Origin: Suillus spraguei
Taxonomy: Eukaryota; Basidiomycota; Agaricomycetes; Boletales; Suillaceae
NCBI GenBank assembly: GCA_016800925.1
Contig: JABCPU010000256.1
Location: 1 to 64,000 of the forward strand
Direction: 5' to 3'
DNA: 64,000 bases
The notes beneath the pieces are model-generated. The model did no database searches. It had not been told where the DNA came from and saw only the letters and a program-made list of their open reading frames with translations. Shown here one piece after another: positions 33,786 to 59,528 of the stretch. The translations under genes and the position numbers were made by a program. Position 1 is the first letter of the stretch. Every line of letters begins with the position of its first letter.

Positions 33786-36700
33786 TCAAGGTCTCGCTGA
33801 AGACAAACGGATCAGCAGGATTACTGCCACAGCATAACAGCTAAACATACGCAGGCGATGATTTGAAGTGATTTCAAGAATAGTCTTGATTAACTCAGCC
33901 ATTGCCTGAGAGCGCAAAGATTCTTTTTCCTTCTTCTTGGAACGTTCAAAAGCTTCTTTCTCCTTCTCCTTAGAGCGTTCAAAAGCTTTTTGTGCCTTCT
34001 TCTTGAAGGGTTCAAACGGTAACTTCGCAGTCCAAGTAGATGGCTTTCCTTGATATGTGTGGGTGGCAGTAGTTACAGCTTCATCATATGCGCGGGCGGC
34101 AGCAGTCGCAGCTTCTTCATACAGCTGGACGGCAACACTGACACCTTCCCTGACGGCAGCTGCATGCGGAGACGCAATGTACTGCTCGAGAGCGACAATA
34201 AAAGAGGGAACAGACTTCTGTTTGTCCGGAAGATAGCGTTGCTTTTCAAAAATATAGAAAGAGTGTTCGAAGATGATGACAGCAGCTAAATTATCAATAA
34301 TAAGCAGGTTCATTGCAATGTAGCATCAAAATTCACCAGACATGAGCTGAACATTATTCTCCAAGGGTGATGAGCCGGAAGCCTGGCACATTCGCAACAT
34401 GAGAAACGTGTACAAATTTTGACCAATTGGACATACCACAGAGAGTAACCTAGACTGCATATCCACACAATGACTCCGCAAAAGCTGGTAAAATCATGAT
34501 GAAAAATTGAAAACTGTCCACCTCTGTTAAAGATCGATACACTCACTTTCTGCCAATGTGAAGCTTTTCCGGTTAGCATGGCCCGAAGTCAAAGAAGGAT
34601 GTAGGAACTAACATCCCATTGATGGATCAGAGATGTCGTTTGCGAGAAATGCTCTAGCATAAAAACACTCACATTCTGTCAAGGGATGTGCGATTTCAGT
34701 AGTCAGCAAAGCTCGAGCTAGACGGAAGATCAGCACACTAACACCCTATCAGTGGATAAGCCATAAGATTGGTGAGTGGGGCTAACACTCAAAGGGGGCG
34801 AAGAGACTCACCGGCTATCAACGGATAAGCGATGTCATCGATCAGCAACGCTCGAGCTCAATCACAGATGAATACACTCACGACCTGTCAACGTGGATCA
34901 GTTATTTCATTGATTAGCGATGCTCCATTTCGAATGCGGATCGATGCACTTACATTCTGTGAATGGATGGGCGACGCTTCAGTCAGTATGGTTCGAGCTC
35001 GATGGTGTACCGACAAACTGACCAACTGTTAACAGAGCAGCAATGTGTTCAGTGAGTATAGGCCATGGCGCGAAGGCAACGGAGAATGAATATACGTACA
35101 CTCTGACAATAGATTAGTGAGTGCATCGGTGAAGAAGACAAGAGGTCGACAGAAGATGATCACACTCACAAGCTGTCAACGGGTCGATGATTCCTTCGGT
35201 CAGTGGCTCATTGTCAGTAGAGGACCAATTTGCAGACCTCCTGCCGACACATGATCAATTGATCTGGTCAGAAATGCTCGAGCTTGAAGGTAGGATCGAG
35301 ACACTCACATCCTGCAAACAGGGGGCGAGGACTTCGATCAGCACGGTTCCAACTTGAAGGAGAATCGACACACTCACAACCTGAAAACAGTGGGCAAGAC
35401 CTTCGATTCGCATGGATCAAGCTGGAAGGAGGGTTGACACACTCACAACCTGCGAATACTTGGATCAGCATGGCTCGAGCTCGAAGGAGGATCGACACAC
35501 TCACATACTACGAATGGTGGGCAAGGACTTCTATCAGCATGGCTCAAGCTCGGATGGACATCAACAGACTTACACCCTGTGCATAGTGGACAAGGACTCC
35601 GATCAGCATGGCTCGAGCTCGGGGGAAGATCGAAACTCACATACTGCGAACAGTGTGCAAGAACTTCGATCAGCATGGCACGAGCTCGAAGTAGGATCGA
35701 CACACTCACAAACTGCGAATAAGTAGTGGGCAAGGACGTCGATGAGCATGGCTCGAGCTTGAAGGAGGATCGATACACTCACATCCTGTGAAATGTGAGT
35801 AAGGAGCTCGATGAGGGTGACTAAAAGTCGAAGGATCGACACACTCACATCCTGGGAACAGTGGACAAGGAATTCTATCAGCATCGCTCGTGCTCCAAGG
35901 AAGATCAACACACTCACATGCTGCGAAAGATAGGCAACGACCCGATCAGCATGGCTGGAGCTTAAAGGAGAATTGGGACACTTACAACCTGCGAACAGTA
36001 GGCAAGGACTTCGATCAGGATGGCTCTAGTTCGAAGGAGGATCAACACACTTACAAACTGCAAACAGTGGGCAGGGACTTTGATCAGCATGGCTCGAGCT
36101 TGAAGAAGGATCGACACACTAACACCCTGTGAACAGTGGACAAGGATTTCTATCAATATGGCTCGAGCTCGGAGGAAGATCGACACACTCACACCCTGAA
36201 AACAGTGTACAACGACTTTGATCAGCATGGCACGAGATCGAAGGGGGATCAACACACTGACCGCCTGCAAAAAGTGGGCAAGGCCTTCGATCAGCAGGAC
36301 TCGAGTTCGAGGAGGATCGACACACTCACATCCTGTGAATAGCGGACAAGGACCTCGATCAACATGGCTCGAGCTCAAGGAGGATCAACACACTCACATA
36401 CTATGAACAGCGCAAAAGGACGTTAATCAACATGGATAGAGCTCGAAGGAGGATCAACACACTCACAACCTGTGAACAGTGGGCGAGGATTTCGATCAGC
36501 ATGGCCCGAGCTTGAAGGAGGATCGACACGCTCACACCCTACCAACCATGGACAAGTACTTCGATCAGCATGGCTTGAGCTCGAAGTAAGATCAACACAC
36601 TCACAGGCTACGGATAGTGGGCAAGGACTTCGATCAGCATGACTGGAGCTCAGAGGAAGATTAACACACTCACACCCTGCGAACAGTGTGCAACGACTTC

Positions 36701-38891
36701 GATCAGCACGGCTCGAGCTCGAAAGAGGATCAACACACTCACACCCTGCGAACAGTGACCAAGGACTTCTATCGGCACGGCTCGAGCTCGGAGGAGGATC
36801 GACACACTCACATGCTGCCAACGGTGGGCAAGGACTTCGATCAGCATGGCTCCAGCTTGGAGGATCAACATACTCACAAACTGCGAATAGTGGGCAACGA
36901 CTTAGATCAGCATGGCTCGAGCTCGAAGGAGGATAAACACACTCACAACCTGAAAACGGTGGGTAAGGACTTCGATCAGCATGGCTCGAGCTCGAAAGAA
37001 AATTGATACACTCACATCCTGCGAACAGTAGGAAACGACTTGAATCAACATGGCTCAAGTTTGAAGAAGTATCGCCACACTCACATCCTGTGAACAGTGG
37101 GCAGGGACTTGGATCAGCATGGCTGGAGCTCGAGGGAGGATCGACACACTCACATCCTGCGAACAGTGGGCAACGACTCGATCAGCATGGCTCGAGCTCA
37201 AGGGAGAATTGAGATACTTACAACCTGCGAACAGTGGGCAAGGACTTCGATCAGCATAACTCGAGCTCGAAGGAGGATCGACACACTCACATCCTGCAAA
37301 CAGTGGGAAACGACTTGGATCAGTATGGCTAAAGCTTGAAGGAAGATCGGTATGCTTACCCACTGTTAATAGATGGGCAATGCTTGGATCAGTATGACTC
37401 GAGCTCGAAGGAGCATCGACACACTCACAGGCTACGAATAGTGGGCATGTACTTCGATCAGCATGGCTCGAGCGCGAAGAGGAACGACACACTCACACCC
37501 TGCAAACAGTGGGCAAGGATTTCGATCAGGATGTATTGAACTTGCATGAGGATCGACACACTCACAACCTGCGATCAGTGGGCGACGACTTTGATAAGCA
37601 TGGCTCAGGTTTCAAGAGGATCAAGAGACATACCGTCTGCAAGTAAATGCCCATCATAAATGAGAACAACTTTTAAACACTTCAACAATCACAATCTTAC
37701 ATAAATGTGCGGAAACCAGATACTCGATCTTTTTATTATCATCTCATGCCGACCCTCAGTTGTCTTAGCAGGGTTAAAAATGTCCGGGACGGTTCTGGAC
37801 AATATCAGTCAGTAACGCTCGTAGCAGGTCAATGAGACGATTGGTAGTTACTTCTCAACTGCATATTTAACGCAGAGCTCCAAGTTGGTCCGCTGTGTCG
37901 AGATAAACAATTGCTTCACCACCTCATTATCCAGAGTTCTAGCCGTGTGTTCAATGAGTGGCCTGCAATCTACGCCATCCTTGTTCATGTCTAATACGTC
38001 AATGGGCATCATGTATCGCAACTTGACCATTTTCTGGCTTACTGGAAAGGCACACACAACATTTTGGAGGCCATTGGAAATCCTTGAGAAACTTCATTTG
38101 GGGCCCGCTGAAAAATGACTCCTCGGCGTGCATCGGGGCCAATTCTCTAGCGTCTCTCAGCGGTACACCCTTTGATTTCAGCTCTGTGTATGCGATGTCG
38201 TAGAGGGCATCGAATTTGGTGAACAATACCATCACTGGGACTGAGGATTGTGATTTTGTGTATCAGTGGAACCTCAGCGATGGTAGGACATGAAAGCTTA
38301 CTACTTCCTGTGTTGCATTGAGAGAAAAATTTGATTTCGCCTGTAGTGAATGACCTGCTTTCTTGGTCCATCGGGATGCAGTACCTGTGTTAAAATGTGA
38401 GATGGTACACGTCACAGTTGATCAAATACAATTACCAGATAGCATGAAGTCGATCTTTTAATCTGGTTTCATTAGAACGGCGCGCGATGAATGCTTTGAC
38501 CTTGTCAAATTCAGATTCACTGCCCGCCTCAAAACCGCGCGAATCATGAAAGACAAATCCTGGGTTGCTTTGAAACACTAATTCATTCTCGATATTGTGC
38601 TCTCCACGCTGAGAGCACGTCAGTTCACGTCATCAGCTAATAGCACACCTTACCTCTCTGGATGAAGTTAAAACTGCAGGATCGATCTGATGTCGATGGG
38701 TTAGTTATCACTATCAGCCTCTTACAGACAACATGAATGAGGTGCACCTTTTTTCCAGCGCCGTTATAGATTTCTGGATTCCCCCGCGTGTTGCAAATTC
38801 TTTGGAGGATGGTAGTCTTTCCTGCATTCGCTCTTCCTATAATGAGGATTCGAAAGCGACCAATTTTTTCCCTTATATTTGATGGATCCAT
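33786..38891 (-). CDS. P-loop GTPase M1, with a micro-exon array
   Basis: Putative GTPase of an Agaricomycete P-loop family. Exon 1 (start 38891) reads MDPSNIREKIGRFRILIIG, then Walker A RANAGKTTILQRIC. Next come RGEHNIENELVFQSNPGFVF, switch-like DSRGFEAGSESEF, LKDRLHAIW-YCIPMDQESRS, FFSQCNTGS, VPVMVLFTKFDALY (G4-like TKFD), NMNKDGVDCRPLIEHTARTL and FISTQRTNLELCVKYAVE. A 94-nt exon (37701-37794) ends IIKRSSIWFPHIY in phase 0. The array of three-base exons follows (see separate entry). An 18-nt exon SRLLSV, an ASGSSPLENNVQLMS exon and AAVIIFEHSFYIFEKQRYL close the series, then an Ala/Glu helical region, a Lys/Glu-rich stretch and NHRLPRP. Function unknown; an immune-like role is speculation. 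Confidence 0.8.
34547..37636 (-). repeat. Micro-exon array of M1: about 45 diverged units, each AG|NNN|GTNAGT
   Basis: Read on the coding strand, 44 consecutive units from 37636 down to about 34673 each show a CAG or TAG acceptor, exactly three bases and a GTGAGT-like donor (GTGAGT, GTAAGT, GTTAGT, GTCAGT, GTACGT; one weak GTCTGC at 35239). A CTGAT-like branch motif lies about 27 nt before each AG. One unit near 34612 has lost its AG, and a last AAA unit lies at 34547-34549. Triplets seen include GAT (8), GGT (8), GTT (7), TAT, TTT (3 each), CAT, CCT, AAT (2 each) and single ACG, TGG, GCG, GAG, CTT, AGT, TTG, GTC and CCG. None is a stop. Spacing is mostly 66-69 nt, so a read-through frame is broken while the splice signals persist. 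Confidence 0.8.
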
Positions 38892-39733
38892 GGGGAAGAT
38901 AGTAAATACTGAGGGAGAAGGAACATCGGCGTAGCCCTATAATTTATCACTGTAGTGTGTGAACCCGGAAAATGCCCAATACTAAACTAGTCTATCTAGA
39001 TAAATTAGCCTAAGTGAACAGCCAGGGTATTGTAGCTGTGTACCATTAGTAGGGTGTGACATGGATGCACTCGTGGTGCCACCACCCGGCGCACCCAAGC
39101 CGTGGGCGAATAGTACTCTGAAAGCTTACTCGCACCCCATGGTACGGGTCAAAGTATCATGGAAGTGAGTGGATCCGTGAGTAGATGCGCAGTTGCGTAT
39201 GGGACTTGAAATGCTGAGTGGCCAATATTGTGGTAAACGGTAAATATAGCGGTCGTGTGAAACAGGCCAGCATTCATTATGTAATTGCACCGAACGATGT
39301 TAACTCGTCCGCCGTATATTTCAAAACAGACGTTAAGGTTTGTTGTACGCTTGTACAATAAGTTAGCCACGTCGTGCAGCAGGTAACAATTTGCTTTGTG
39401 ATACCTTGGTTGAGTTTATACTTCGTGCCTTCACCTGTCTGCATGCGTTTTTTGAGGATTACCTGGTCTATGGTTTACGCCGTGCGAGGTCGGTGCCACA
39501 TGTAACTCAAGACAAGCTCAAGATAGTTCGGAGTCCCGTCGCCTTTTTGTGTGTCGCTTAATCAACAGTTATTCATGTTCTTGTGATGGCACACATGTGT
39601 TCTATATTTTATAACTGATGACGAGTTCAAGGTGTCGGCCAGGTATTCACGTCAGGGTACCCGACGCATGACTCACACTCAACGTTTACAGTAGCCCAGA
39701 CTCGGAGTAGACTCTTCCCTAAATCAAATCAGT
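38892..39733. promoter_or_regulatory. Divergent intergenic region between M1 and G1
   Basis: 842 bp between two start codons pointing outward. It should hold both promoters. I see no clear TATA box and no gene in it. Confidence 0.5.
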
Positions 39734-42386
39734 ATGGCAAGTTCTCTTCGCGCCTCAACGGGATCCTACCCTTTACACATCTATGGTATTCAATTCTTGC
39801 CGTCAAACGGTATCATCAATCCGGCTGAATATATCTAATAGGTATCACTATCGATTTCAGCAAGTCAAAAACGAAGGTAGAGTCCGCTGAATTATGGATA
39901 GGCAGGTTGCATTCGCCAATCGGACACGAAGCAGGAAAGAGTTTGCGACGGTCATTTTCTCCGCCCATGTAAGTACTCCACCCCAACGCATGTTCTCACC
40001 TGAGCTGCCACTGTACTATAGGAAGCTTTCTCAGGGCGATACATTTTCCTTACATATGCGTTACAAGAAATGGCTTGGGACAAAACCCGAAGAAATGATT
40101 GTCAACCCAGAAGATATTTTCCGTGTGTATAGTGCAGGCGAAAGACAAGGTGAAACAATAATCATCGTATCTCGCCTTGAGCTCAACCTTACATGCGTAG
40201 AATACATCCAGTTTCATAAGAAAACGAGGATCATCATCGAGCTTTCTGAGAATGCGACAATCGAAGTGAGGATCCACGTCTGGCATTGAACTCGTCTAAG
40301 TCCTAGATCAACAGACTGGACAATTTGTCTCTTCCGATGAAAACCTCGAGCTCCGGCCTATCACTTCTGAAATATTTCGCAAGTGTCCTCGGTGAGTAAG
40401 GATGACTATAAAGTGTCAGTCTTGAGGTTGACAATCTCAAGGTTCCGAATTCTGGTGATAGGAAATGTATCTAGCTTTCTCTGATCTCAGGCCAGTGTTG
40501 ACGACATACTTTCAATAGACTGGTGTTGGCAAGTCATCACTGATAAACCACGCATTTGGAGTGGAAAAAGCTGTGGGCTGAACCGACACTTCAACGAGCA
40601 CAGCTACTCATACTATCATTAGGTCGCTTCGCACGATAAGCCAGGCGAGGCTAGCATTGACCATGAGTTCACTTCACCGCAGAACGACAAATTTGTTCTC
40701 CATGATAGTAAAGGTTTTGAACCAGGGGAAGAAGGCAACCTCAAAATAGTCCGAGATTTCATTAACCGTCGGAGGAACATGTCTACTCCGGGAAATCAGT
40801 TGCATGCTATTTGGCAAGGATTCTATCTCGAGCGTTTTGTTATGGTGGACTCATCAAATACCCGGAAGGCTTTGCATTGAGATACCTCGTGCAGGTGCAC
40901 GTTTGCTAGAGACGGGAACAGAGGAATTTCTGACACTGAAAAGTAGTGGAATGCTGGGAAACAGTAAGTGAATCAATAACTGTCTCTGCTGTGAGTTGGA
41001 GCTTACACTTGGTCGAAGCTCCCGTTGTTGTCATTCTTACTAAATACGATAAGCTCATCGACCGCATAGAGCGAACTCTAGACGAAACCTCTCTCAATAG
41101 ATTGAGCGACGAAGCCATCAAGGAACTCGCGAAGAATAAAGCAGAGGCCGAGCTGCAGGACATCTGCATCAGACCTCTGAAGAAATTTGCAGGGCCTGAT
41201 ATTCCCCACGCCAAGATTTCTAGTACGTACCGATATTCCGCAGGTTCATGCATACCTCTGAAGCGTCATATCACAGCCCACAAAGGCTATAAGGAGACAC
41301 TCACCGATCTGATCCAAATAACTGAAGACTGTGTCGGTCAGTATTCTACGCCCGAGGTCGCGGTGATGACCTCCATCGCCCAGCGAGTGCATCCTGGACT
41401 CAAAATAAAGGCATCAATCGAGTGAGCCTTACTTGCTTCATTATTATCTCGTTATTTACGTAGCGTCAGGGTTGGCAAGAGAAGTCTGTCCCAGCTTCGC
41501 GTTGATAATTACCAAATACGATCTAAATCTTCATGTCTTGCAGGATATTGGAAGGCGCTTGGATCAAGCACGACGTTCAAGAACCGCAAGACGTGGGATT
41601 GTCTATATGTGCTCCACACCGACATCATCAATGTGTGGAACTTCTATGACCCTCATCGTGTAATGACCATCTTATTTGTTGTCGTCACATCCGTCCTAAC
41701 GTGATTTGTGCATAGTACTTGCACAGTCAAGAATTCAGGAAAATGATGGTGAAAATGGTCGATGGGCTAGAAGTTGGACCTACATCTAATCCCACTAGGA
41801 CAATGTAGGCCGGTCTTTACGTGACAGATCGATTTTCATCTCACTGACTACTTACAGGACTATCGGGCTATCTATGGTAGGCACTATTGCGGGAATCGTG
41901 TCCACCTCGGCGGGACCTGCAGCTCCCATCGTAGTACCAATCGCAGCAAGCGCTGTACTCGCCAAATGGGTTTACGATGTATATCAAATATCGTACGTAC
42001 CACTATTTTTTCGTGAGTGAAAAGATATCGACACTTTCCTCAGCCACGCAGTGCTTCAGCACTTCATGTGCTACATCATCCACTTGACACTTGTGTTGCA
42101 AACACTTTATCTCGTGTCAGAAAGCCAAGAAGTTACTCGTAGAGTTATCAAGCTCGCAGTCGCTTCCTACCTCGCCTCCCCAATAAGCGGAGAAGTTCTT
42201 GCTTGGATCCAGGAGTACGACAAGCATTTGACCATCCTGGAACGCGCGGATCGCGATACCTTGGATAAAATTATCGAGATGATGCAATTTTATAGCATCG
42301 ATGCGGCACAAATGTCCAAGCTTCGACAAAAGATTCCCCCTGTGGGTTCGCTACCAGACGAACCTTGGGAAACCGAGAAGTCGTAG
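39734..42386 (+). CDS. P-loop GTPase G1 with hydrophobic segment
   Basis: Start MASSLRASTGSYPLHIYG, then ITIDFSKSKTKVESAELWIG and KLSQGDTFSLHMRYKKWLG in a sheet-like N-terminal domain. The G domain starts FRILVIGN and continues TGVGKSSLINHAFGVEK (Walker A), FVLHDSKGFEPGEEGN (G3-like), RRRNMSTPGNQLHAIW, EIPRAGARLLETGTEEFL and VVVILTKYDKLIDRIER (G4-like TKYD). Further exons give LQDICIRPLKKFAGPDIPH, NRKTWDCLYVLHTDIINVWN, a Gly/Ala-rich segment TIGLSMVGTIAGIVSTSAGP followed by APIVVPIAASAVLAKWVYD, and a helical tail ERADRDTLDKIIEMMQFYSI. The intron after HAIW uses a GC donor (GCAAGG) where G2 and G3 have GTAAGG. It is the most intact of the three G copies and is divergent from M1. Confidence 0.75.
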
Positions 42387-42931
42387 CACTCGATTCCTTC
42401 TTCCGTAGATGGTTTTACACGTGGGGGGTGTCTGGATACTGACACGATAGCTGCTTGCTTGTACTATATGGCTGGGTTATGGCTGATTATCGCGCTTCCA
42501 TAGTATGTTAATGTCTTCTATTATAGCCGTTCTCATAATTATACGGAATGGCAAAAGTTGAAAGACAATGTGTCGCCATCACCCTCCCTCGAAATACCTC
42601 AATTTAGGGCTACATCCATTGTCCATCTTGATGCACACACAAAGACTACTACTGAAACTAATAGCATGAGCAAAGTCAAACCTACGAAAGTCAAGGAACT
42701 TGTATTCCACATCTCCGAACCCAACTATCTCGAATTTATCATCCTCGCGAAACATGACGAATCCATGAGACTTACTGCATGTTCACGCAGGAATTGCAAT
42801 TACACGAAGCGCTCACTTGTGACTGGTCCTTCAATAATGTCGTAGGCAATGATCCCAATGAGAGTCAGGATCGAGCAGCGCTTGCCTCGCACAGAGCATT
42901 TCCTTTGCACACATCTTAAATAAAATAGTTG
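42387..42931. other. 3' flank of G1 with a possible element fragment
   Basis: The first 140 bases match the 3' flanks of G2 and G3. An open frame at 42558-42845 (KVKELVFHISEPNYLEF) could be part of a transposon protein, but I cannot assign it. Confidence 0.3.
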
Positions 42932-44944: not shown

Positions 44945-47900
44945 TTATGGTCTTGCTGAAGACAAGCAGATCAGTGGAATTACTAGCATAACATGACAGT
45001 GAAACATACGCAGGCGATGATTTAAAGTGATTTCAAGGACAGTCTTCATTAACCCTGCCTTCACCTGAGAGCACAAAACTTCTGTCTCCTCCTTAGAAGC
45101 TTCTTTCTTCTTCCCCTTAGACCGTCGGAAAGCTTTGTGTACCTTCCTCTTCAACGGTTCAAATGGTGACTTCGCCATCCAAGTAGACCGTTTTCCTTTC
45201 ACAGCTTCTTCAGATGCGCGGGAGGCAGTAGCCACAGCTTCTTCATATGCGCGGGAGGCAGTAGCCACAGCTTCTTCGTATGCGCGAGTGACAGTAGTCA
45301 CAGCTTCTTCATATGTAGGGGCGGGGATAGTCACAGCTTTTTCATACGCCTGGACGGCAGCGTTGACGCCTGTCTTGACAGCAGCTGCGTGCGGAGATGC
45401 TATGTACTGCTCGAGAGCGACAAGAAAAGAGGGAACTGAATTTGTCTTGTCCTGAAGATAGCGTTGCTTGTCGTGAATGTAGAAAGAGTGTTCGAAGATA
45501 ATGACAGCAGCTAAATTATGAATGATAAGCAGGTTCATCGTAATGTAGCATCAAAAATCACCAGAAATGAGCTGAACATTATTCTCCAAGGGTGATAAGC
45601 CAGACGCCTGGCACATGAGAAACGTGTATACTTTTTGACCAATTGGACATACCACACAGAGCAACCTAGACTGCATATCTGCACAATGGCTGTGCGAAAG
45701 CTGGTCAAATCATGATGTGAATTTGAGGATCGCCCACTTCCACGAGGATCGAGACACTCACTTCCTGCGAACAGTAGCCAAGGACTTGGATCAGCACGGC
45801 TCGAGCTCGAAGGACGATCGACACACTCACTTCCTGCGAACAGTGGCCAAGGACTTGGATCAGCACGGCTCGAGCTCGAAGAACGATCGACACACTCACT
45901 CTCTGCGAACAGTGGCCAAGGACTTGGATCAGCACGGCTCGAGCTCGAAGGACGATCGACACACTCACAAACTGCGAACAGTGGCCAAGGACTTGGATCA
46001 GCACGGCTCGAGCTCGAAGGACGATCGACACACTCACGTCCTGCGAACAGTGGCCAAGGACTTGGATCAGCACGGCTCGAGCTCGAAGGACGATCGACAC
46101 ACTCACTCTCTGCGAACAGTGGCCAAGGACTTGGATCAGCACGGCTCGAGCTCGAAGGACGATCGACACACTCACTCTCTGCGAACAGTGGCCAAGGACT
46201 TGGATCAGCACGGCTCGAGCTCGAAGGACGATCGACACACTCACTCTCTGCGAACAGTGGCCAAGGACTTGGATCAGCACGGCTCGAGCTCGAAGGACGA
46301 TCGACACACTCACTTCCTGCGAACAGTGGCCAAGGACTTGGATCAGCACGGCTCGAGCTCGAAGGACGATCGACACACTCACGTCCTGCGAACAGTGGCC
46401 AAGGACTTGGATCAGCACGGCTCGAGCTCGAAGGACGATCGACACACTCACAAACTGCGAACAGTGGCCAAGGACTTGGATCAGCGCGGCTCGAGCTCGA
46501 AGGACGATCGACACACTCACAAACTGCGAACAGTGGCCAAGGACTTGGATCAGCACGGCTCGAGCTCGAAGGACGATCGACACACTCACGTCCTGCGAAC
46601 AGTGGCCAAGGACTTGGATCAGCACGGCTCGAGCTCGAAGGACGATCGACACACTCACGTCCTGCGAACAGTGGCCAAGGACTTGGATCAGCACGGCTCG
46701 AGCTCGAAGGACGATCGACACACTCACAAACTGCGAACAGTGGCCAAGGACTTGGATCAGCGCGGCTCGAGCTCGAAGGACGATCGACACACTCACAAAC
46801 TGCGAACAGTGGCCAAGGACTTGGATCAGCACGGCTCGAGCTCGAAGGACGATCGACACACTCACTCTCTGCGAACAGTGGCCAAGGACTTGGATCAGCA
46901 CGGCTCGAGCTCGAAGGACGATCGACACACTCACAAACTGCGAACAGTGGCCAAGGACTTGGATCAGCACGGCTCGAGCTCGAAGGACGATCGACACACT
47001 CACGTCCTGCGAACAGTGGCCAAGGACTTGGATCAGCACGGCTCGAGCTCGAAGGACGATCGACACACTCACGTCCTGCGAACAGTGGCCAAGGACTTGG
47101 ATCAGCACGGCTCGAGCTCGAAGGACGATCGACACACTCACGTCCTGCGAACAGTGGCCAAGGACTTGGATCAGCACGGCTCGAGCTCGAAGGACGATCG
47201 ACACACTCACTCTCTGCGAACAGTGGCCAAGGACTTGGATCAGCACGGCTCGAGCTCGAAGGACGATCGACACACTCACAAACTGCGAACAGTGGCCAAG
47301 GACTTGGATCAGCGCGGCTCGAGCTCGAAGGACGATCGACACACTCACTCTCTGCGAACAGTGGCCAAGGACTTGGATCAGCACGGCTCGAGCTCGAAGG
47401 ACGATCGACACACTCACGTCCTGCGAACAGTGGCCAAGGACTTGGATCAGCACGGCTCGAGCTCGAAGGACGATCGACACACTCACTCTCTGCGAACAGT
47501 GGCCAAGGACTTGGATCAGCACGGCTCGAGCTCGAAGGACGATCGACACACTCACTTCCTGCGAACAGTGGCCAAGGACTTGGATCAGCACGGCTCGAGC
47601 TCGAAGGACGATCGACACACTCACTCTCTGCGAACAGTGGCCAAGGACTTGGATCAGCACGGCTCGAGCTCGAAGGACGATCGACACACTCACTTCCTGC
47701 GAACAGTGGCCAAGGACTTGGATCAGCACGGCTCGAGCTCGAAGGACGATCGACACACTCACTCTCTGCGAACAGTGGCCAAGGACTTGGATCAGCATGT
47801 CTTGAAAGTATTAATAAACATACCATCTGCAAGAAATGCACAAGGTAAATGAGAACCTTCAAATTATCGGTCAATCTTACCCAAATATGTGGAAACCAGA

Positions 47901-49056
47901 CACTGGATCTTGCTATTATCAACTCATGCCAAGCCTCAGTTGCTCGAGCATCATGAACAAGGTCCGGGAGTATTCTGGACAATATCAATCATTAACGCTT
48001 GTAGCAGCTAAATGAGACGATGAGTACCTACCTTCGAAGTGCATGTTCCATGCAGAGCTCCAAGTTGGTTTGCTGGGTGGAGATGAATAGCTGCTGCAAT
48101 ACATCATTGTCCAGGGTTCCAGCCGTGCATTGTATGAGTGGCCCGCAATCTGCGCCATCTTTGTTCATGTCTAATTGACCAACTGTCGTCATGTATCGCA
48201 ACTTGACCGTTATCTGGCTCACCAGGAAGGCATACATGGTATTTCGGAGGTTGGAGGTCTTTGAGAATCTTTAATTGAGGCCCATTAGCAAATGACTCCT
48301 TAGCCTGCCTAGGGGCCTGGGCGCTAGCGGTTTTTCCTGGCACCCCCTGTGATATCAATTCCATGTATGCGTCGTCATGCAGGGCATCAAACTTGGTGAA
48401 CAACACAATCACTGGAACTAAGGATTGTGATTCTGTGCGTCAGGCAAACGTCGACGATGTGGTTGGATGCGAAAGCTTACCCGTTCCTGTGTCGCACTGA
48501 GAGAAAAATTTGTTTTCGCCCGCGGTGAATGACCTGCATTTCTGGTCCATCGGGATGCAATACCTATGTTAAAAATGTGAGATGGCACGCGTCGCAATCC
48601 ATTACAATTACCAGATAGCATGGAGTCGATTTCCTAATCTGGGTTCCTTAGACCGACGCGTGATAAAGTCCTTGACCTTGTCAAATTCAGATTCCCCGCC
48701 CGCCTCAAAACCACGGGAATCGTGAAAGACAAATCCTGGGTTGCTTTTGAATACCATTTCATTCTCGATATCGTGTTCTCCACGCTGAGAACACGTCAGT
48801 TCATGTCATAGACTAGGAGCACTCCTTACCTCTCTGGATGCGTTCAAAACTGCAGGTTCGATCTGGTGTCGATGGGTCAGTTATTACTACCAGCCTCTTA
48901 CTAGCGCCCACCTGTTTTCTAGCGCGGTTATAGATTGCTGGCTTCTCTCCCGTATTGCAAACCCTCTGGAGAATGGTAGTTTTTTCCTGCATTGGCTCTT
49001 CCTATAATGAGGATACGAAAACGAGGGATTTTGCTCCTTATCTTTGAAGGATCCAT
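44945..49056 (-). CDS. P-loop GTPase M2, with a homogeneous micro-exon array
   Basis: Paralog of M1 with the same exon plan. Start MDPSKIRSKIPRFRILIIG and GRANAGK; here six A (48980-48985 on the plus strand as T) instead of five shift the frame inside Walker A, so TTILQRVC follows in another frame. Then EPAVLNASRE, VPVIVLFTKFDALHDDAYME, DMNKDGADCGPLIQCTAGTL and FISTQQTNLELCMEHALR. A 94-nt exon (47881-47974) ends IIARSSVWFPHIW in phase 0. The array follows, then SRLLCV, ASGLSPLENNVQLIS and AAVIIFEHSFYIHDKQRYL. The Ala/Glu region has more near-identical AYEEAVATASR-type repeats than M1. The protein ends NHRLPRP. Divergent from G2. The frameshift may be an assembly error in a homopolymer. Confidence 0.78.
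45762..47826 (-). repeat. Micro-exon array of M2: 30 exact 69-bp units plus one leader unit
   Basis: Thirty units at a strict 69-bp period (variable triplets from 45762-45764 to 47763-47765) plus an ATG triplet at 47824-47826. On the coding strand each unit is a 66-nt intron (GTGAGT donor, CTGATC branch-like site, TGTTCGCAG acceptor) and three exon bases. The introns differ only at a recurrent A/G change next to the branch site (three units), a single base in unit 3 and a few bases in the terminal units. The triplets are AGA (10), GAC (8), TTT (7) and GAA (5). They would encode Arg, Asp, Phe and Glu, or no residue at all if the whole array is removed as intron. Three of the six frames stay open through the array because the period is divisible by three. 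Confidence 0.85.
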
Positions 49057-51046: not shown

Positions 51047-51356
51047 GGAAACCGGTCCTTGCCGCGCCATCAGTCTGCGCAAGTCTCTGCGACGTATACA
51101 TAATATACAAGCTTTACTCATAATACCGTTCTTGTGGCACATGTTTCCATTTTATAATTAAGTAAAAATAACTTGACTGCAAGGTGTTGGCCGGGTGTTT
51201 TGTGCTAAGCCCATCAGTATCCACTTGGTGCACCACAGGCCGTACACGTCATAGGGTACTATAACCGACTTCCTCGCAGCTAATGCATGGCTTACACTCA
51301 ATGTCTAGATAAATCTATAGTAGCTCACAGTCGATTCTTCCCTAAATCAAATCAGC

Positions 51357-53984
51357 ATGGCCGGTTCTCTTCTCGCCTCAACGATTTCGTACCCTCTCCA
51401 CATTTATGGTACTCAATTCTTGTCAAACAGTATCATCAACCCCACTGAATATATCTAATAGGTATTACTGTCGATTTCAGCAAGTCGAAACTCAATGTAA
51501 AGTCTGCTGAAGTACGGATTGGCAAGTTGCATTCCCCATTGGACGCGAAGCAAGAGAGAGTTTGCGTCGGGTATTTTCTCCACCCACGTAAGTACTTGAC
51601 CCCAACGAATTTCTCATTTGATTTGCTACTATGTTTTTTTTTGTCATAGGGAGCTTTCTCAGGGTGACACATTTTCCTTGCATATACGGTACAGGACACG
51701 GTTTGGGATAAAAGCTGGGCACGAAGAAATCATTTTCAACCCAGAAGAGATGTCCCGCTGTGTAGTGCAAACGGAAGACAAGGTGAAACAACAATCATCG
51801 CACCATCGCTTACGAACTCAACCCCACATGTGCAGAATACATCAAGTTTCATAAAAAGTTCAGGATCGCCGTCGACCTTGCCCGGGAGTACATCAATCGA
51901 AGTAAGGATCCACGTCGTCTGACATCAAACTCGTCTAAATCTTAGATCGGCAGGCTGAGCAGTCTGTTATTTCCGATGAAAGCCAGCTCCGGCCTACTAC
52001 TTCTGAAATATTTGGCCAGTGTTCTCCGGTGAGCCAGGATGATTATCGGAGTGTCATTCTTTAAGTTAACGTCCCCAAGGTTCCGGATTCTGGTAATAGG
52101 AAATGTATGTGGCTTTCTAGATCTTAGACCAGCGTTGACAGTGTGCTTTCGATAGACTGGTGTTGGCAAGTCATCGCTGATCAACCTCGTGTTCGGAGTG
52201 GAAAAAACGGTAGGTTGAACCTCATATAGTGTCCATAGACCGTTTCCGACGATAAGCCAGGCGAGGCTAGCATCGACGACGAGTTCACCTCACCGGAGAA
52301 TGACAAGTTTGTTCTCCATGATAGCAAAGGTTTCGAGCCAGGGGACAAAGACAACCTCGAAATAGTCCGAAATTTCATTGAACGTCGGAGGAACATGCCT
52401 ACTCAAGAAGAACAATTACATGCTATTTGGTAAGGATTCTATCTCGACTTCTCCATTATGGTGGACTGACCAAATACTCGGAAGGCTTTGCTTTGAGATA
52501 CCTCGTGCAGGCGCACGTCTGCTAGAGACGGGAACGGAGGGAATTCCTGACATCGACAAGTAATGGAACGCTTGGAAACAGTAAGTGAATCGATAGCTAT
52601 TTCTCTACTACGTTGGAGCTCACACTTCGTCAAAGTTCCCGTTGTTGTCGTTCTCACTAAATACGATAAGCTCGTTGGCCGCATGGAGCGAACTCTATAC
52701 GAAACTCCAAACGGATTGAGCGATGAAGCCATCAAAGAACGTGCCAAGAAAAATGCAGAAGACGAGCTGCAGGATATCTGCATCAAACCTCTAGTGAAGG
52801 CTGCAGGGCCTGATATCCCCTACGCCAAGATTTCTAGTACGTACTAATATTACGATAGGTTTATGCGTGCCTCTGAAGCGCAATATCATAGCCCATAGAG
52901 ACTACAAGGAGACACTCACCCGCCTGATCCAAATAACTGAAAACCGTGTCAGTCAGCATTCTACGCCCGAGGCTGCGGTGATGACCTCCATCGCTCAGCG
53001 AGTACATCCTGGACTCAAAATAAAAGCATCAATCGAGTGAGCCTTGCTTGCTTCATTCTTATCTCGTCATTTACACAGCGTCAGGGTCGGCAAGAGAAGT
53101 CTGTCCCAGTTTTGCGTTGACAATTACCGAATACAATCTAAACCTTCATGTCATACAGGATATTGGAAGGCACTCGCATCAAGCACGAGATTCAAAAACC
53201 ACAAGACGTGGGATTGTCTAGATGTGCTTCACACTGACATCGTCCGTGTGTGGAACTTCCGTGACCCCATCAGGTAATGGCTATCTTATTTATTGTCGTC
53301 GCATCCATACCAACGTGGTTTATGCATAGTACTTGCACAGTCAAGAGTTCAAGAAATTGATACTAAAAATGGTCGATGAGCTGGAAGTTGAACCTACAGT
53401 TCATCCCACTAGGACCATGTAGGCCGGTCTTCTACATGGCAGATGAAGCTTCATCTCATTGACTGTTTAAGTACTATTGGACTATCCATGGTGGCCGCCA
53501 TTGCGACCATTGTGTCCACCCTATCGGGGCCCGCAGCCCCCATTGTGGTACCGATCGCAGCAGGTGCTGTACTCGCCAAATGGGTTTACGATGTATATCA
53601 GATATCGTACGCACCACTATTTCTTCGTGAGCGAAAGGATATCGACACTTTTTCCTCAGCCATGCGGGACTTCGATGCTTCATGTCCTACATCGTCCACC
53701 TAACACTTGTGTTGCAGACACTTTATCTCGTGTCAGAAAGCCAAGAACTCACTCGTAGGGTTATCAAGCTTGCAGTCGCTTCCTATCTCGCCTCAATGAG
53801 CAGAGAAGTTCACGCTCGCATCCGGGAGTTTGATGGGCAGTTGACCGTCCTGGAACGCGCGGATCGCGACACCTTGGATAAAATTATCGAGGTGATGCAA
53901 TTTTATAGCATCGATGCGGCACAAATGTCCGAACTTCGACAAAAGATGCCTTCTGTGGGTTCGCAACCAGACGAATATTGGTAA
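51357..53984 (+). CDS. P-loop GTPase G2, partly degenerate
   Basis: Paralog of G1 with the same exons: MAGSLLASTISYPLHIYG, a KFHKKFRIAVDLAREYINR stretch, FRILVIGN, TGVGKSSLINLVFGVEK, DKFVLHDSKGFEPGDKDN, RRRNMPTQEEQLHAIW, VPVVVVLTKYDKLVGRMERT and LQDICIKPLVKAAGPDIPY. The Gly/Ala-rich segment APIVVPIAAGAVLAKWVYD and the helical tail ERADRDTLDKIIEVMQFYS follow. The frame is disturbed near 51800 and by one extra C before the donor near 52027 (TCTCCG against CCTCG in G1 and G3). The downstream half is clean. It is a young pseudogene or carries assembly indels. Confidence 0.65.
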
Positions 53985-54175
53985 ATCGAGAAATCGTGGC
54001 ACTCAATTATTTCTTTTGTGGATGGTTTTACGCGTGGGGGGTGCCTGAGTCCTGGCACGATCGCAGACAGTGCTTGCTTGTACTATGTGACTGTAGTTAT
54101 GGCTGATCTCGCTGTAATATGTTAGTGTCTTCTATTATCATCATGTACTTACTGCTAGACTTGAGTCGAGCTTTC

Positions 54176-54302: not shown

Positions 54303-56702
54303 GCCTGGTGAAATGGCCACGCCTGAGGTACACCTTTTCGAGCACCGGTCCGGTCTCCTGTTTTCCGTTCCTCTACAAAGCTCACCTCATGTCTTGTAGA
54401 CCCTTAGGGACCCTTACCTTCTCTGACACACTCCCGTTTTATTTAGCAAGTACGATTTCACGCTGATCGGTCTCTCTCTTTCACCTCGAGACTTTCACTC
54501 AGTCAAACTTAGATTCAGTGCAGCATAAATAGTACAAAGTTTGTTGAGCGCCAATTCAGTCACACCTGATCTAAGTTCCGACAAAAGATGCGCTAACTTG
54601 TTATGTTTCACTGCAACACTGTATAATATCGTTCATATCACCTACATAACTCACCTGCGCTAATTTTGTAAAAGGAGTGAGCAGAACATGTTGCCCGATC
54701 AGGGTACCTGCGGGGAATTTTGACAGTAGACTTACTTTGAAGCATTGACGTCTGCCTCGTGTTTGATGAGAAGATTGACTGCGAGATCACTACCACATGC
54801 ACAAGTCACATGTGAAGGTGAAACGCCGTTTAAGACAAAGTTTACGGCCAGGTTGTCAGGCGTAATATACATTCGGTAGCAACGTTATACTTTGCTTCGG
54901 CTGTGCAGTTCCTAGAAGGGGGCAGCATGGCAAGATGCCTGTGCATTTGCGATCATCAGTAAATCACTTTGCCTCTGTGGGCTCTGTACAACTCTGTACA
55001 GAAGGTACAAAGCTGTGGCCAGCCATTTTTTGGTGGGAAAAAGATATCTTGCTGATGATGATTGAGCAGCCTATGCATGGGGAGACGCCCAGGGCGCTGT
55101 TGAGGTCGTGGCCAGGAAACCTGAGAATACTGTAATAAATAATGTGAAAAAAAAAATGAAAAAAAACGCAATTTCACGCACTTGATTTAATCCATGGAAG
55201 AGAGCGAGTAATAATATAATGGGCGATGCGGTGGCCTGATAGACTAGGATATTAGGGCTGGAAAGTTTGAGGCGCCGGCAATTAGCATGACAATATTTAC
55301 AGGCACCTAGGCCAGCTTCAAGCTTTCAGGGAGTATTAAATATTTAGCTGGGAGGATTTATTGTATACTCGTCGATGATCGATGTCATCTTCATCTTTCG
55401 AGTTGAAGTTCATGCTTGATTCATGTGGGCAACCGGTAATATTTTATATAGCCGCTGAGACGTCGTACCGGTACGAGACCCTATCAAGTTATCTTACTCG
55501 GCGGTCTTTTCGTTTGGAGAAACTGAGTAAGGTTCGACTGATAACAGAGTACCGGAAACTGATCTAGTAGAATCATGGGCAATATTTGATATAGCTGTGA
55601 GCCTGTGCACCATGAGGCGTACACGAGGAGACCTTGCTTACCACTTAGTCACGCCTTCCAATTTCTATATTTAAAATCGCACCTTCCTTCTGGGAGAATA
55701 ATTTATTGATCTCAGTACAGTCATGGACAAACAAAGTCATCTAGTTTGGTATCTCGACAATATGAATTTTTTGGGCCAAACTAACTTCGGATTCGGCTCC
55801 GGGACCTCAAAATAGGTCTAAAAACGACTCTTTCAATCTTTTCCCACGACATTTTTAGTGTGCCAAAATTTTTGGTCGTTTAAACAACGCTTCGACCTAC
55901 AAGACCGCCTCAATTGCCATCATTGCGCGCTGAGTGACTTGACGGTGTCGCTTCTGTTTACAAACAGCCCATTCTGCTGCTTTTCCGGTCAATCCAATCC
56001 TATATGCACTCATAAAACGATATGTCCGATTGATGAACCGCCGGATAACCTCGACTGGACATGAATCTAAGATTACCCAGGTTGCGCCGCTCGTTTTGCA
56101 GCTGCAAAATTTGGCTTCGACATTTGACGATAACGATACTTGCACCAACCCCAGTACTAACTTGACAATCAAACACTTTCCAATGTCTAGAAAGTGATCC
56201 ACGCACCATCTCAAGGTACATCAAGCAGATCTTAAAACGAGGTTGCAAAATGGCTGGAATTGATCACAGCCGCTATCTACAATCATGATTATCATTATCT
56301 AGACTTGATAAATCAGATTTTATTTGCGATAGCATAGCCGAGGCTCGGCTTGATCTCCGTCAACGAAAAACATAAAGCTTTGTACACTTTAGGCATAGTT
56401 TCGTGATGTACGTGAGCACGACCTGAGCTATACTAAATCCAACGCACAAAAAGCTGCTTTTGGTGCGCTGCCGTAGATGACTTTGTTTGTCCACGACTTT
56501 AAACCATTATTGTACACAGGTTTTCTATTCGAATAACCAAAATAAGGCGTTGGCTGGGTGTCTTGCACTACTCCCATCAGTATCTTTGGTGCACCCAGGG
56601 CATACACGGCATACGGTACTTTACTTCCTCGCAGCTGATGCATGGCTTATGCTCAATGTCTTGATAAATCTACAGTAGCTCAGTGTCGATTCTTCCCTAA
56701 GC
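54303..56702. other. Region between G2 and G3, repeats but no gene
   Basis: 55500-55560 holds a fragment of the inverted-end element seen at 49752-51046. From about 56540 on the sequence matches the upstream region of G2. The remaining 2 kb show no supported gene on either strand. Confidence 0.4.
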
Positions 56703-59351
56703 ATGACTAGTCCTCTTGTCGCCTCAACGGTTTCGTACCCTATCCACATCCATGGTACTCAATTCTTGTCATCAAAAAGTATCATCAACCCCGCTAAATA
56801 TATCTAATAGGTGTCACCATGGATTTTAGCAAGTCCAAACTGAATGTAGAGTCTGCCGAAGTATGGTTCCGCAATTCGCATTCGCCAATAGAACATGATG
56901 CAGGAAAGACTCGGAGTTTTCGACTGACATTTTCTCCGCCCATGTAAGTACTCGACCCCAACACATGTTCTCACCTGATTTGCTACTGTGTTATAGGAAG
57001 CTTTCTCAGGGCGATGCATTTTCCTTGCATATGCGTTACAAGAAATATCTTCGGATGAAGCAAAAAGATATTATTTTTGACTCAGGAGATATGTTCCGCC
57101 TTGCAAAGGAAGAACAAGGTAAAACAATGATAATCGCATCCTCGCCTTAATCGCTCACGAACTCAACCTCAGTAGAATGCATCAAGTTTCATAAAAAAAT
57201 CAGGATTGTCGTCGACCTTATCGGCAATACAGCAATCGAAGTAGGGATTCACGTCGTCTGACATTGAACTTGTCTAAGTCATAGATTAGCAGGGTGAGCA
57301 GTCTGTTATTTCCGATGAAAGCCCCGAGCTCTCGCCTACCACTTCCGAAATATTTCGCAAATGTCCTCGGTGAGTCAGGATAATCACAAAGTGCCATTCT
57401 CGAGGTTGACACTCCCAAGGTTCCGAATTCTGGTGATAGGAAATGTATCCAGCTTTCTTAGATCTCAGATCAGTGTTAACGTCATGCTTTCGATAGACTG
57501 GTGTTGGCAAGTCATCGCTGATCAACCTCGTATTCGGAGTCAAGAAAACGGTAGGTTGGACCCGACACTTCAACGAGCACAGCTACTCATACCGCTAATA
57601 GAGCGTTTCGCACAATATGCCAGGCAAGGCTGAAATCGACGAGGAGTTCACCTCACGGGAGAACGACAAGTTTGTTCTCCATGATAGCCAAGGTTTTGAA
57701 GCAGCGGACAAAGTCAACCTCGAAATAGTCCAAAAATTCATTGAACGTCGGAGGAACATGCCTACTCAGAAAGATCAATTACATGCTATCTGGTAAGGAT
57801 TCTATCTCGACTACTCCATTATGATGGACTGACCAAATACCCGGAAGGCTTTGCTTTGAGATACCTCGTGCAGGTGGACGTTTGCTAGAGAGGGGAACGG
57901 AGGAATTCTTGACATTGAAAAGTAATGGAACGCTGGGAAACAGTAAGTGAATTGATAACTATTTCTCTACTACGTTGGAGCTCACACTTGGTCAAAGTTC
58001 CCATTGTTGTCGTGTTCACTAAATACGATAAGCTCGTCGGTCGCATGGAGCGAACTCTATGGGAAACTTCCAATGGATCGACCGATGAGGACATCAAGGA
58101 ACTTGCCAAGAAAAATGCAGAAGACGAGCTGCAGGATATCTGCATCAGACCTCTGAAGGAATTTGCAGGGCCTGATGTTCCTTACGTTAAGATTTCTAGT
58201 ATGTACCAATATTTCGACAGGTTCATGCGTGCCTCTGAAGCGTAATATCGCAGCCTACAAAGGCTACGAGGAGACACCCACCCATCTGATTCAAATAACT
58301 GAAGAACGTGTCGGTCAGCATTCTACGCCCGAGGCCGCAATGATGACCTCCATCGCTCAGCGAGTACATTCTAGACTCAAAATAAAGACATCAATCGAGT
58401 GAGCCTTACTTACTTCATTCTTATCTCGTCATTTACGCAGCGTCAGTGTTGGCAAGACAAGTCTGTCCCATTTCCCCGTTGATAATGACTGAACATAATA
58501 GATATCTTTATGTCTTGCAGGATATTGGAAGGCGCTCGCATCAGCCACGAAGTTCAAGGGCTGCAGGACGTGGGATTGTCTACGTGTGCTTCACATTGAT
58601 ATCATCGGTGTATGGAACTTTCATGACCCTCATGGTGTAATGGCTGTCATATTTTTCATCGTTGCATCCGTCCTGACGTGGTTTGTGCATAGTACTTGCA
58701 CAGTCCAAAGTTCATGGAATTGATAGTGACCATGGTCGATCAGGTAGAAGCTGGACCTATAGCTAATCCCATCAGGAACATGTAAGTCGGTCTTTTATGT
58801 GACGAATAAATTTTCATCTCATTGATTGTTTACAGTAATATTGGGCTAGCCGTGGTATCAACTATTACGGCCGTCGTGGCCGCCCTGGCGGGACCTGCAG
58901 CTCCCATTGTGGTATCGATCGCAGTAGGTGCTGTACTCGCCAGATGGGTTTACGATGTATACCAGGTCTCGTACGTACCACTATTTTTTCGTGACTGAAA
59001 GGATACCGACCCTTTTTCCTCAGCCATGTAGTGCTTCGGCATTTCATGTCTTACATCGTCCACCTGACACTTGTGTTGCAGACACTTTATCTCCTGTCAG
59101 GAAGCCAAGAAGTCACTTGTAGAGTTATCAAACTCGCAGTCAACTGCTACACCGGCTCCCCAATGAGCACAGGAGTTCATACTCAAATTCAGGAGTATGA
59201 TGGGCAGTTGACCATCCTGGAACGCGCGGATTCCGATGTCTTGGATAAAATTGTCGAGGTGATACAAAGTCATAGCATCGGTGCAGCACAAATGTCCGAA
59301 CTTCGAAAAAAGATTTCCCCTGTGGATTTGATACCAGACGAACAATGGTAA
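56703..59351 (+). CDS. P-loop GTPase G3, partly degenerate
   Basis: Third G copy, tandem to G2: MTSPLVASTVSYPIHIHG, DFSKSKLNVESAEVWFRN, KLSQGDAFSLHMRYKKYLR, FRILVIGN, TGVGKSSLINLVFGVKK, DKFVLHDSQGFEAADKVN, QLHAIW, VPIVVVFTKYDKLVGRMERT and LQDICIRPLKEFAGPDVPY, then a hydrophobic APIVVSIAVGAVLARWVYD segment and a tail ending ISPVDLIPDEQW. The frame is unclear near 57150, where a stop follows MIIASSP. G3 differs from G1 in the G3-like motif (Gln for Lys, AA for PG), so GTP handling may differ. Confidence 0.65.
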
Positions 59352-59528
59352 ATCGAGAATTCGTAGCACTCGGTTCTTTCTTTTGTAGATAGCTTTGCGC
59401 GTGGGCGGTGTATGAGACTGAGTGACTCGGACGCGATTGCAGATAGTGCTTTCTTGTACTATGTGACTGGAGTTATGGCTGATCATCGCATTGTCGTATG
59501 TTAGTGTCTTTTATTAACATTATGTACT

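Follow-up and report, generated by a model that had tools for sequence, protein, structure and literature searches.

How a gene could carry exons of a single codon, one after another, between introns that are almost copies of each other is the question raised by M2, an array on the minus strand of a 64,000-nt stretch of Suillus spraguei DNA (hereafter the window). The initial annotation had described a 69-bp unit made up of an acceptor CAG, three bases (AGA, GAC, TTT or GAA) and a donor GTGAGT, and our count bears this out: 30 triplets follow one another at an exact spacing of 69 bp from 47765 down to 45762, giving 29 complete units, with AGA present 10 times, GAC 8 times, TTT 7 times and GAA 5 times. 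They are preceded by one further triplet, ATG (47826-47824), which itself follows a 54-nt intron, and the chain of about 31 residues expected earlier thus comes to 31 triplets, with the predicted residues MRERERDRFRDDDFRFFDDFFDERRRDFREE. All but one of the 30 introns between these triplets are 66 nt long, the exception being the first at 58 nt, and the intron motif CTGATC starts 30 nt before the end of the AG. The reported contrast between near-invariant introns and changing triplets also holds; over the 29 units the three triplet sites have 17, 17 and 15 minor alleles, against a sum of 5 for all 66 intron sites (a mean of 0.08 per site). When a strict pattern for the array (TNGCAGNNNGTGAGTGTGTNNAT) was searched in the whole genome (86,217,890 bases in 1256 contigs), it gave 321 matches, 134 forward and 187 reverse, and a reversed control pattern gave none.

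M2 lies between two ordinary exons of a GTPase-type gene (Table 1), the downstream one of which had been placed at 45655-45672 and is corrected here to 45653-45700. A second array, M1, occupies the same position in a neighbouring GTPase gene 10 kb from M2; its introns measure 55-74 nt, apart from two of 123 and 136 nt where the splice parser described below skipped a weak site. The P-loop in M1 reads GRANAGKT, and the MMR_HSR1 profile (PF01926) scores 24.3 bits in M1 and 23.7 bits in a related protein, P0004, both above the gathering cut-off of 21.9, with another relative, P0035, under that cut-off at 21.3 bits. No NACHT or ankyrin profile matched in M1 exons 1-7, P0004, P0121 or P0035. Relatives of solved structure were mostly P-loop matches, the best being the GTPase Der (E = 0.00033); no NCBIfam profile matched above its cut-off, and scans of the window against Rfam (gathering thresholds) and for tRNAs returned no match. 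Exon 1 of M2 (48909-49056, minus strand) contains a frameshift at the P-loop, where the length of a homopolymer differs from that in the other haplotype, which lacks the frameshift; this may be a real null allele or an assembly error.

Table 1. Exons and single-codon arrays of the two GTPase genes in the window.
Feature	Position	Strand	Description
M2 exons 1-6	48037..49056	-	Ordinary exons of the GTPase gene
M2 exon 7	47881..47974	-	Ordinary exon, ends ...SSVWFPHIW in phase 0
M2 array	45762..47826	-	31 three-base exons: ATG, then 30 of AGA/GAA/GAC/TTT
M2 exon 8 (LSHSHCADMQSRLLCV)	45653..45700	-	Ordinary exon 3' of the array, starts in phase 0
M2 exons 9 and 10	45335..45607	-	Ordinary exons, as far as the peptides used reach
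M1 exons 1-7	37704..38891	-	Ordinary exons, GTPase paralogue of M2
M1 array	34547..37636	-	Older array, 44 three-base exons parsed
M1 exons 8-10	34110..34484	-	Ordinary exons, as far as the peptides used reach

Elsewhere in the window, tandem repeats of 33 bp stand near the 3' ends of the M1 (33916-34121) and M2 (45199-45346) genes, the latter resolving by eye into 11-residue units such as AYEEAVATASR. Three further regions (39706-42524, 51329-54086 and 56700-59421) show a weak plus-strand similarity to the GTPase query and are about 82% like the matching parts of another contig, C888; a scan of the window for arrays found none in them, and they are perhaps a second GTPase family.

A 69-bp unit invites a simpler reading, since 69 is 23 times three: the array could be coding throughout, with no introns at all, and yield on one strand or the other a tandem protein repeat whose 23-residue units each have a single hypervariable position. 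M2 taken by itself accommodates this, as no stop interrupts positions 45744-47800 in two of the three frames on each strand and 30 of the 32 M2 introns are stop-free multiples of three, and the Suillus gene models P0025 and P0034 do translate one intron unit. The reading breaks down in the paralogues. M1 has between 27 and 57 stops in each of the six frames, units of 67, 68, 70, 72, 73 and 77 nt occur in other copies and would break any frame, and the relatives P0004, P0121 and P0122 contain about 24-37 single residues at this position and no 23-residue repeat. We reject it as scarcely credible.

The paralogues also allow the exon size to be read from more than one array. The GTPase family has other array loci at L013-L018, L021-L023, L031 and L032, and a simple splice model that permitted exons of 1-45 nt and gave no preference to 3 nt was run on 14 arrays, including three haplotype pairs. 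Because the parser demands AG and, in practice, GT, conservation of the sites is partly built in; spacing is not, and 484 of the 501 parsed exons are exactly 3 nt long. Every exon is a triplet in M2 (31/31), its haplotype (15/15), both haplotypes of M1 (44/44 each), L014 (21/21) and L017 (34/34), and nearly every one in L018 (87/88), L023 (46/47), L016 (28/29, the remaining one being 9 nt), L013 (30/32), L021 (25/27), L015 (43/47), L031 (13/15) and L022 (23/27), the number of triplets in the other paralogues ranging from 13 to 87. All 14 arrays lie between the same two exons (7, ending ...WFPHIW, and 8) of one GTPase family, on the sense strand and in phase 0. Outside L031 their introns are 51-75 nt long, except that each M1 haplotype has two longer ones. 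Intron lengths fall into all three classes modulo 3 in 13 of the 14 arrays. Each unit has GT...AG and a branch-point-like motif, maintained in diverged copies, as expected of spliceosomal introns. Among the 41 M1 introns shorter than 80 nt, for example, G at +5 is present in 41 and YTNAY in 39; GT and AG are found in all 41 as well, both being conditioned by the parser, and the remaining listed positions outside GT/AG agree in 22 to 40. One donor in L018 is altered to AT. Stwintrons were considered and rejected, every unit having a complete donor and a complete acceptor with three bases between them.

Five of these arrays (L014, L016, L017, L018 and L023) share an internal organization, in which a block of similar introns, mostly 91-100% identical to the nearest sibling (86% in one case), gives way at the 3' end to a run of eleven to thirteen introns with 62-78% identity. 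This arrangement fits repeated expansion of units within the array, with local homogenisation.

Exons that depart from 3 nt (17 of 501) comprise eleven of 2 nt and six of 5, 7, 9, 13, 24 and 44 nt. The 2-nt exons are distributed over L015 (four), L022 (four), L021 (two) and L023 (one); perhaps one base was lost after CAG, and the affected units differ between L015 and L023. They raise the possibility that many copies are pseudogenes or artefacts of repeat assembly, and that differences in array length and between haplotypes are not biological, which would also suit the exon 1 frameshift of M2 and the partial matches of ordinary exons in some copies (exon 1 of M2 and of L015, exon 3 of L018, exons 3 and 4 of L021), which may be frameshifts. 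However, M1, the M2 haplotype, L013, L016 and L023 (five of the 14 stretches) match nine exon peptides fully or nearly so, and because stops occur in exon 7 of L021 and L022 but not of L015 and L023, pseudogenes account for the 2-nt exons only partly. The haplotypes point the same way: the triplets of M1 are identical in both (0 of 44 differ, with 9 of 3078 intron sites differing, a pair too alike for a test of selection), and L015 and L023, which are likely haplotypes of each other, are 98.9% identical over 8.5 kb. We consider this explanation of the arrays very unlikely. For M2 itself, C888 aligns collinearly with the window (98.6% identity on one side of the array and 97.9% on the other) and is on this alignment most likely its other haplotype; the array there has 15 triplets against 31 in the window, with the chain MREELLLDERLDFEE.

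Joined chains are present in transcript-like sequences from relatives. The best 120 of 1631 relatives from a protein search were listed, and a second search, with the array region of P0004 as query, returned P0004, P0121, P0122 and P0002. P0004 (jgi; 543 aa on a contig of 1848 bases) was aligned to ten concatenated exon peptides, exons 1-7 of M1 and 8-10 of M2. Seven of the eight ordinary junctions align without an added residue. The junction of exons 4 and 5 has one, which an exon 4 extended by three bases to the following GTAAGC would account for, and precisely where the array lies there are 30 extra residues, ARYYYDDVRDLDVLDLLRDLDVLLLLKREK. Among the first 26 residues of this chain K, E, Q, M and W are absent, the five amino acids for which no NNT codon exists. 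In P0121 (jgi; 7 member sequences) the extra segment at the array is 37 residues long, and the protein aligns without additions across each of the three ordinary junctions within its span. In P0122 (lgn; contig of 1059 bases) the segment DELGIQFTKRDD, which is DELG followed by eight residues, stands just before exon 8, and the old tail of L018 before exon 8 reads GAT GAG CTT GGT followed by eight triplets, twelve in all and the same length as the P0122 segment. From their short contigs and missing introns we infer that these three are cDNA-derived; they are open reading frames of relatives and not of the gene in the window. P0020 and P0035 also have long extra segments at the array position, and P0010 has a D/L/Y/V chain followed by VSFF, the reading of an unspliced GTGAGTTTYTTY donor.

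The same sequences bear on a less demanding account of the locus, in which an inert minisatellite grew inside one large intron that is removed whole, leaving the triplets untranslated. The frame would equally survive if exon 7 were spliced straight to exon 8, and the models P0001, P0002, P0003 and P0005, from other Suillus species, have no more than a few residues at this point. This account leaves unexplained the extra residues in P0004, P0121, P0122, P0010, P0020 and P0035, the splice signals in every unit of diverged arrays, and the focusing of variation in the triplet, whose third position is fixed in seven of twelve arrays; we reject it as extremely improbable. In a search for transcripts of S. 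spraguei itself, seven of its spliced segments combined in one chimeric query gave no match at E <= 10 among the 8000 candidates examined. The public S. spraguei models P0018, P0022 and P0061 end at the exon preceding exon 7; the start of P0018 corresponds to exon 1 of L031 (C669). Three models or open reading frames, P0025, P0034 and P0087 (S. bovinus, S. cothurnatus and another source), translate an apparent array intron, e.g. VSVSI...CSQ, which suggests that such arrays are present in other Suillus species.

The distribution of variation, counted only in 69-nt units near the consensus of each array, was then compared between triplets and introns. In L018 the 55 young units have 28, 38 and 0 minor alleles at codon positions 1, 2 and 3, whereas an intron site has 0.55 on average and 7 at most. 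Position 3 is invariant in seven of twelve GTPase arrays (M1, L013, L015, L018, L021, L022 and L023, two of which are haplotypes of each other) and varies in the other five (M2, its haplotype, L014, L016 and L017). Introns vary as well in L015, L016, L023 and M1, where the most variable intron site has 9, 7, 11 and 3 minor alleles, respectively. Pooled triplets contain no stop in 428, against 7.6 expected from positional composition; the corresponding p value of about 5e-4 assumes independence, and triplets are not independent. This pool leaves out the haplotype copies M1_al and L015 and any exon not of 3 nt, and includes 31 triplets of L032 that were read directly and not via the parser.

These figures can be set against the view that the chain is spliced and translated while its diversity is a by-product of local mutation or conversion and not of selection for residues. 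Triplets of the old tails change at least as fast as introns, their conservation giving no sign of purifying selection above the intron level (M1 to L018, for example, 9/15 against an identity of 0.77), and two triplet types, TCT and AGA, likewise occur in the copies of the array that a repeated element carries outside the gene. As a control for variation those copies are weak, with two triplet types only and intron noise that is also high. Local processes alone would not readily keep position 3 constant in the young units of seven of the twelve GTPase arrays while positions 1 and 2 vary, nor keep stops out of all 428 triplets, and we regard a pure by-product as unlikely.

The repeated element just mentioned is found on several contigs, with best long matches 92-98% identical to L012, and carries short array copies whose triplets are mainly TCT and AGA (L011, L012, L020, L025, L026, L027 and L028; e.g. 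L012:4335-4904). An open reading frame beside the L012 copy looked transposase-like by eye and matched only Pfam HTH_32, at an E value of 0.05, below the cut-off; array units may have been captured by a mobile element. M1-like arrays were also seen at L029 (C435:48300-51300), which is 86% identical to M1, and at L030 (C326:120400-123400), with triplets resembling the M1 tail. Similar matches occur among the best ones on C936, C630, C599, C339, C136, C515 and C567. No GTPase exons were among the matches listed around L029 and L030, and such arrays may be a multi-copy element or gene fragments. The loci covered throughout were 24 stretches and eight small loci taken from the best matches, with C936, C630, C599, C339, C136, C515, C567, C423 and C301 among the contigs left out.

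Taken together, the diverged introns of the paralogues, the constant phase 0, the lack of stops, the variation focused in the triplets and the open reading frames of relatives, of which P0004 and P0121 with their uninterrupted extra segments weigh most, uphold the single-codon-exon reading of the initial annotation. We consider it very probable that the array consists of single-codon exons, spliced one by one into a 31-residue segment of the M2 GTPase gene, and since similar chains are already joined in transcript-like sequences of relatives, the stretch very probably encodes a rapidly changing protein segment assembled codon by codon. Short introns of the fungal type are recognised by intron definition. 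The spliceosome would thus remove each intron of about 66 nt (GTGAGT...CTGAT...CAG) by intron definition and link the codons successively, inserting 31 residues between the GTPase part and the C-terminal part of the M2 product; as three nucleotides leave scarcely any room for the complexes of both splice sites together, the introns are probably removed one after another. As every unit is one codon plus one intron, all in phase 0, the gain, loss, exchange or skipping of units would preserve the frame, in DNA or in RNA. The repeated introns also offer extended stretches of identity on which unequal exchange and gene conversion can act, and by these the chain could be lengthened, shortened and reshuffled fast, and selection would then retain amino-acid differences in the codons while the introns remain uniform.

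Whether comparable genes are known bears on how this should be viewed. The initial annotation knew of no described gene of tandem three-base exons, a claim that holds only partly: passages of PMC4986451, PMC3689799, PMC9815663 and PMC10197012 that cite Iotti et al. 2012 report multiple, tens or dozens of alternatively spliced 3-bp microexons in the NACHT-ANK genes of the truffle Tuber melanosporum, which PMC10197012 words in terms of NLR sensor domains. The likeness is considerable on these accounts, with dozens of 3-bp exons per gene in an expanded fungal family (by sequence, 31 in M2, 44 in M1 and 87 of 88 in L018), an ectomycorrhizal habit in both fungi, and 3-bp exons that the citing papers tie to diversification of the recognition part. 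As far as those passages go, however, Tuber is an ascomycete with an NLR bearing ankyrin repeats, whereas S. spraguei is a basidiomycete with a GTPase-type gene without NACHT or ankyrin, and alternative splicing of the microexons is a reported feature of the Tuber genes, whereas the Suillus arrays are known from DNA and from the open reading frames of relatives. The repeats of Podospora-type fungal NLRs, as outlined in PMC9815663 and PMC12222747, are likewise highly similar tandem repeats with few hypervariable positions that are exchanged and reshuffled, but there whole repeats are translated, whereas in Suillus one codon per unit is, the rest being intron. A unit open in one frame through the array, as in that type, is not seen in M1, owing to its stops in every frame, though M2 alone is open.

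Other genes with minute exons resemble these arrays less closely. To our knowledge the exons of schistosome micro-exon genes and aphid bicycle genes are longer than one codon, unlike those described here, and their introns do not form arrays of near-identical units. What they have in common with the Suillus arrays, according to PMC5825161 and PMC9168663, is the occurrence of many very small exons in rapidly evolving families. Exons of 1-3 nt have been shown or proposed in Dactylellina lipS, which has two 3-nt exons (PMC5639578), and in plants, which have 1-nt microexons (PMC8831610), but these are single cases and not arrays. In the open-licence PMC literature, judged by titles and the starts of abstracts, we found no report of a codon-exon array gene in Suillus or another basidiomycete. 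Within that scope, what is new here is the basidiomycete host, an unrelated GTPase family, homogenised intron arrays and differences between haplotypes.

The truffle parallel and the diversity between haplotypes suggest a role in recognition, of non-self or of a partner, and non-self recognition is by this analogy plausible for the segment. We would go further only tentatively, and propose as a possible but doubtful reading that the intron array is itself a device for diversifying a protein codon by codon. On this reading, units of one intron and one codon would be duplicated in tandem, their introns kept alike, and the units freely exchanged or skipped in frame; a basidiomycete GTPase family would in this way have gained a segment for immune-like or self/non-self recognition, and would have done so separately from the NLR genes of the truffle. 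Diversity per cell would also be possible, since any donor could join any later acceptor in frame.

Splicing of such arrays would be an extreme test of the spliceosome, with exons so short that their two splice sites cannot be occupied simultaneously, and the family appears to be a second, unrelated fungal one in which a protein segment seems assembled codon by codon. That three public S. spraguei models stop before the exon preceding the array implies that current annotation can miss such segments. If the diversity of the triplets is selected, these genes would offer a tractable recognition system in ectomycorrhizal basidiomycetes.
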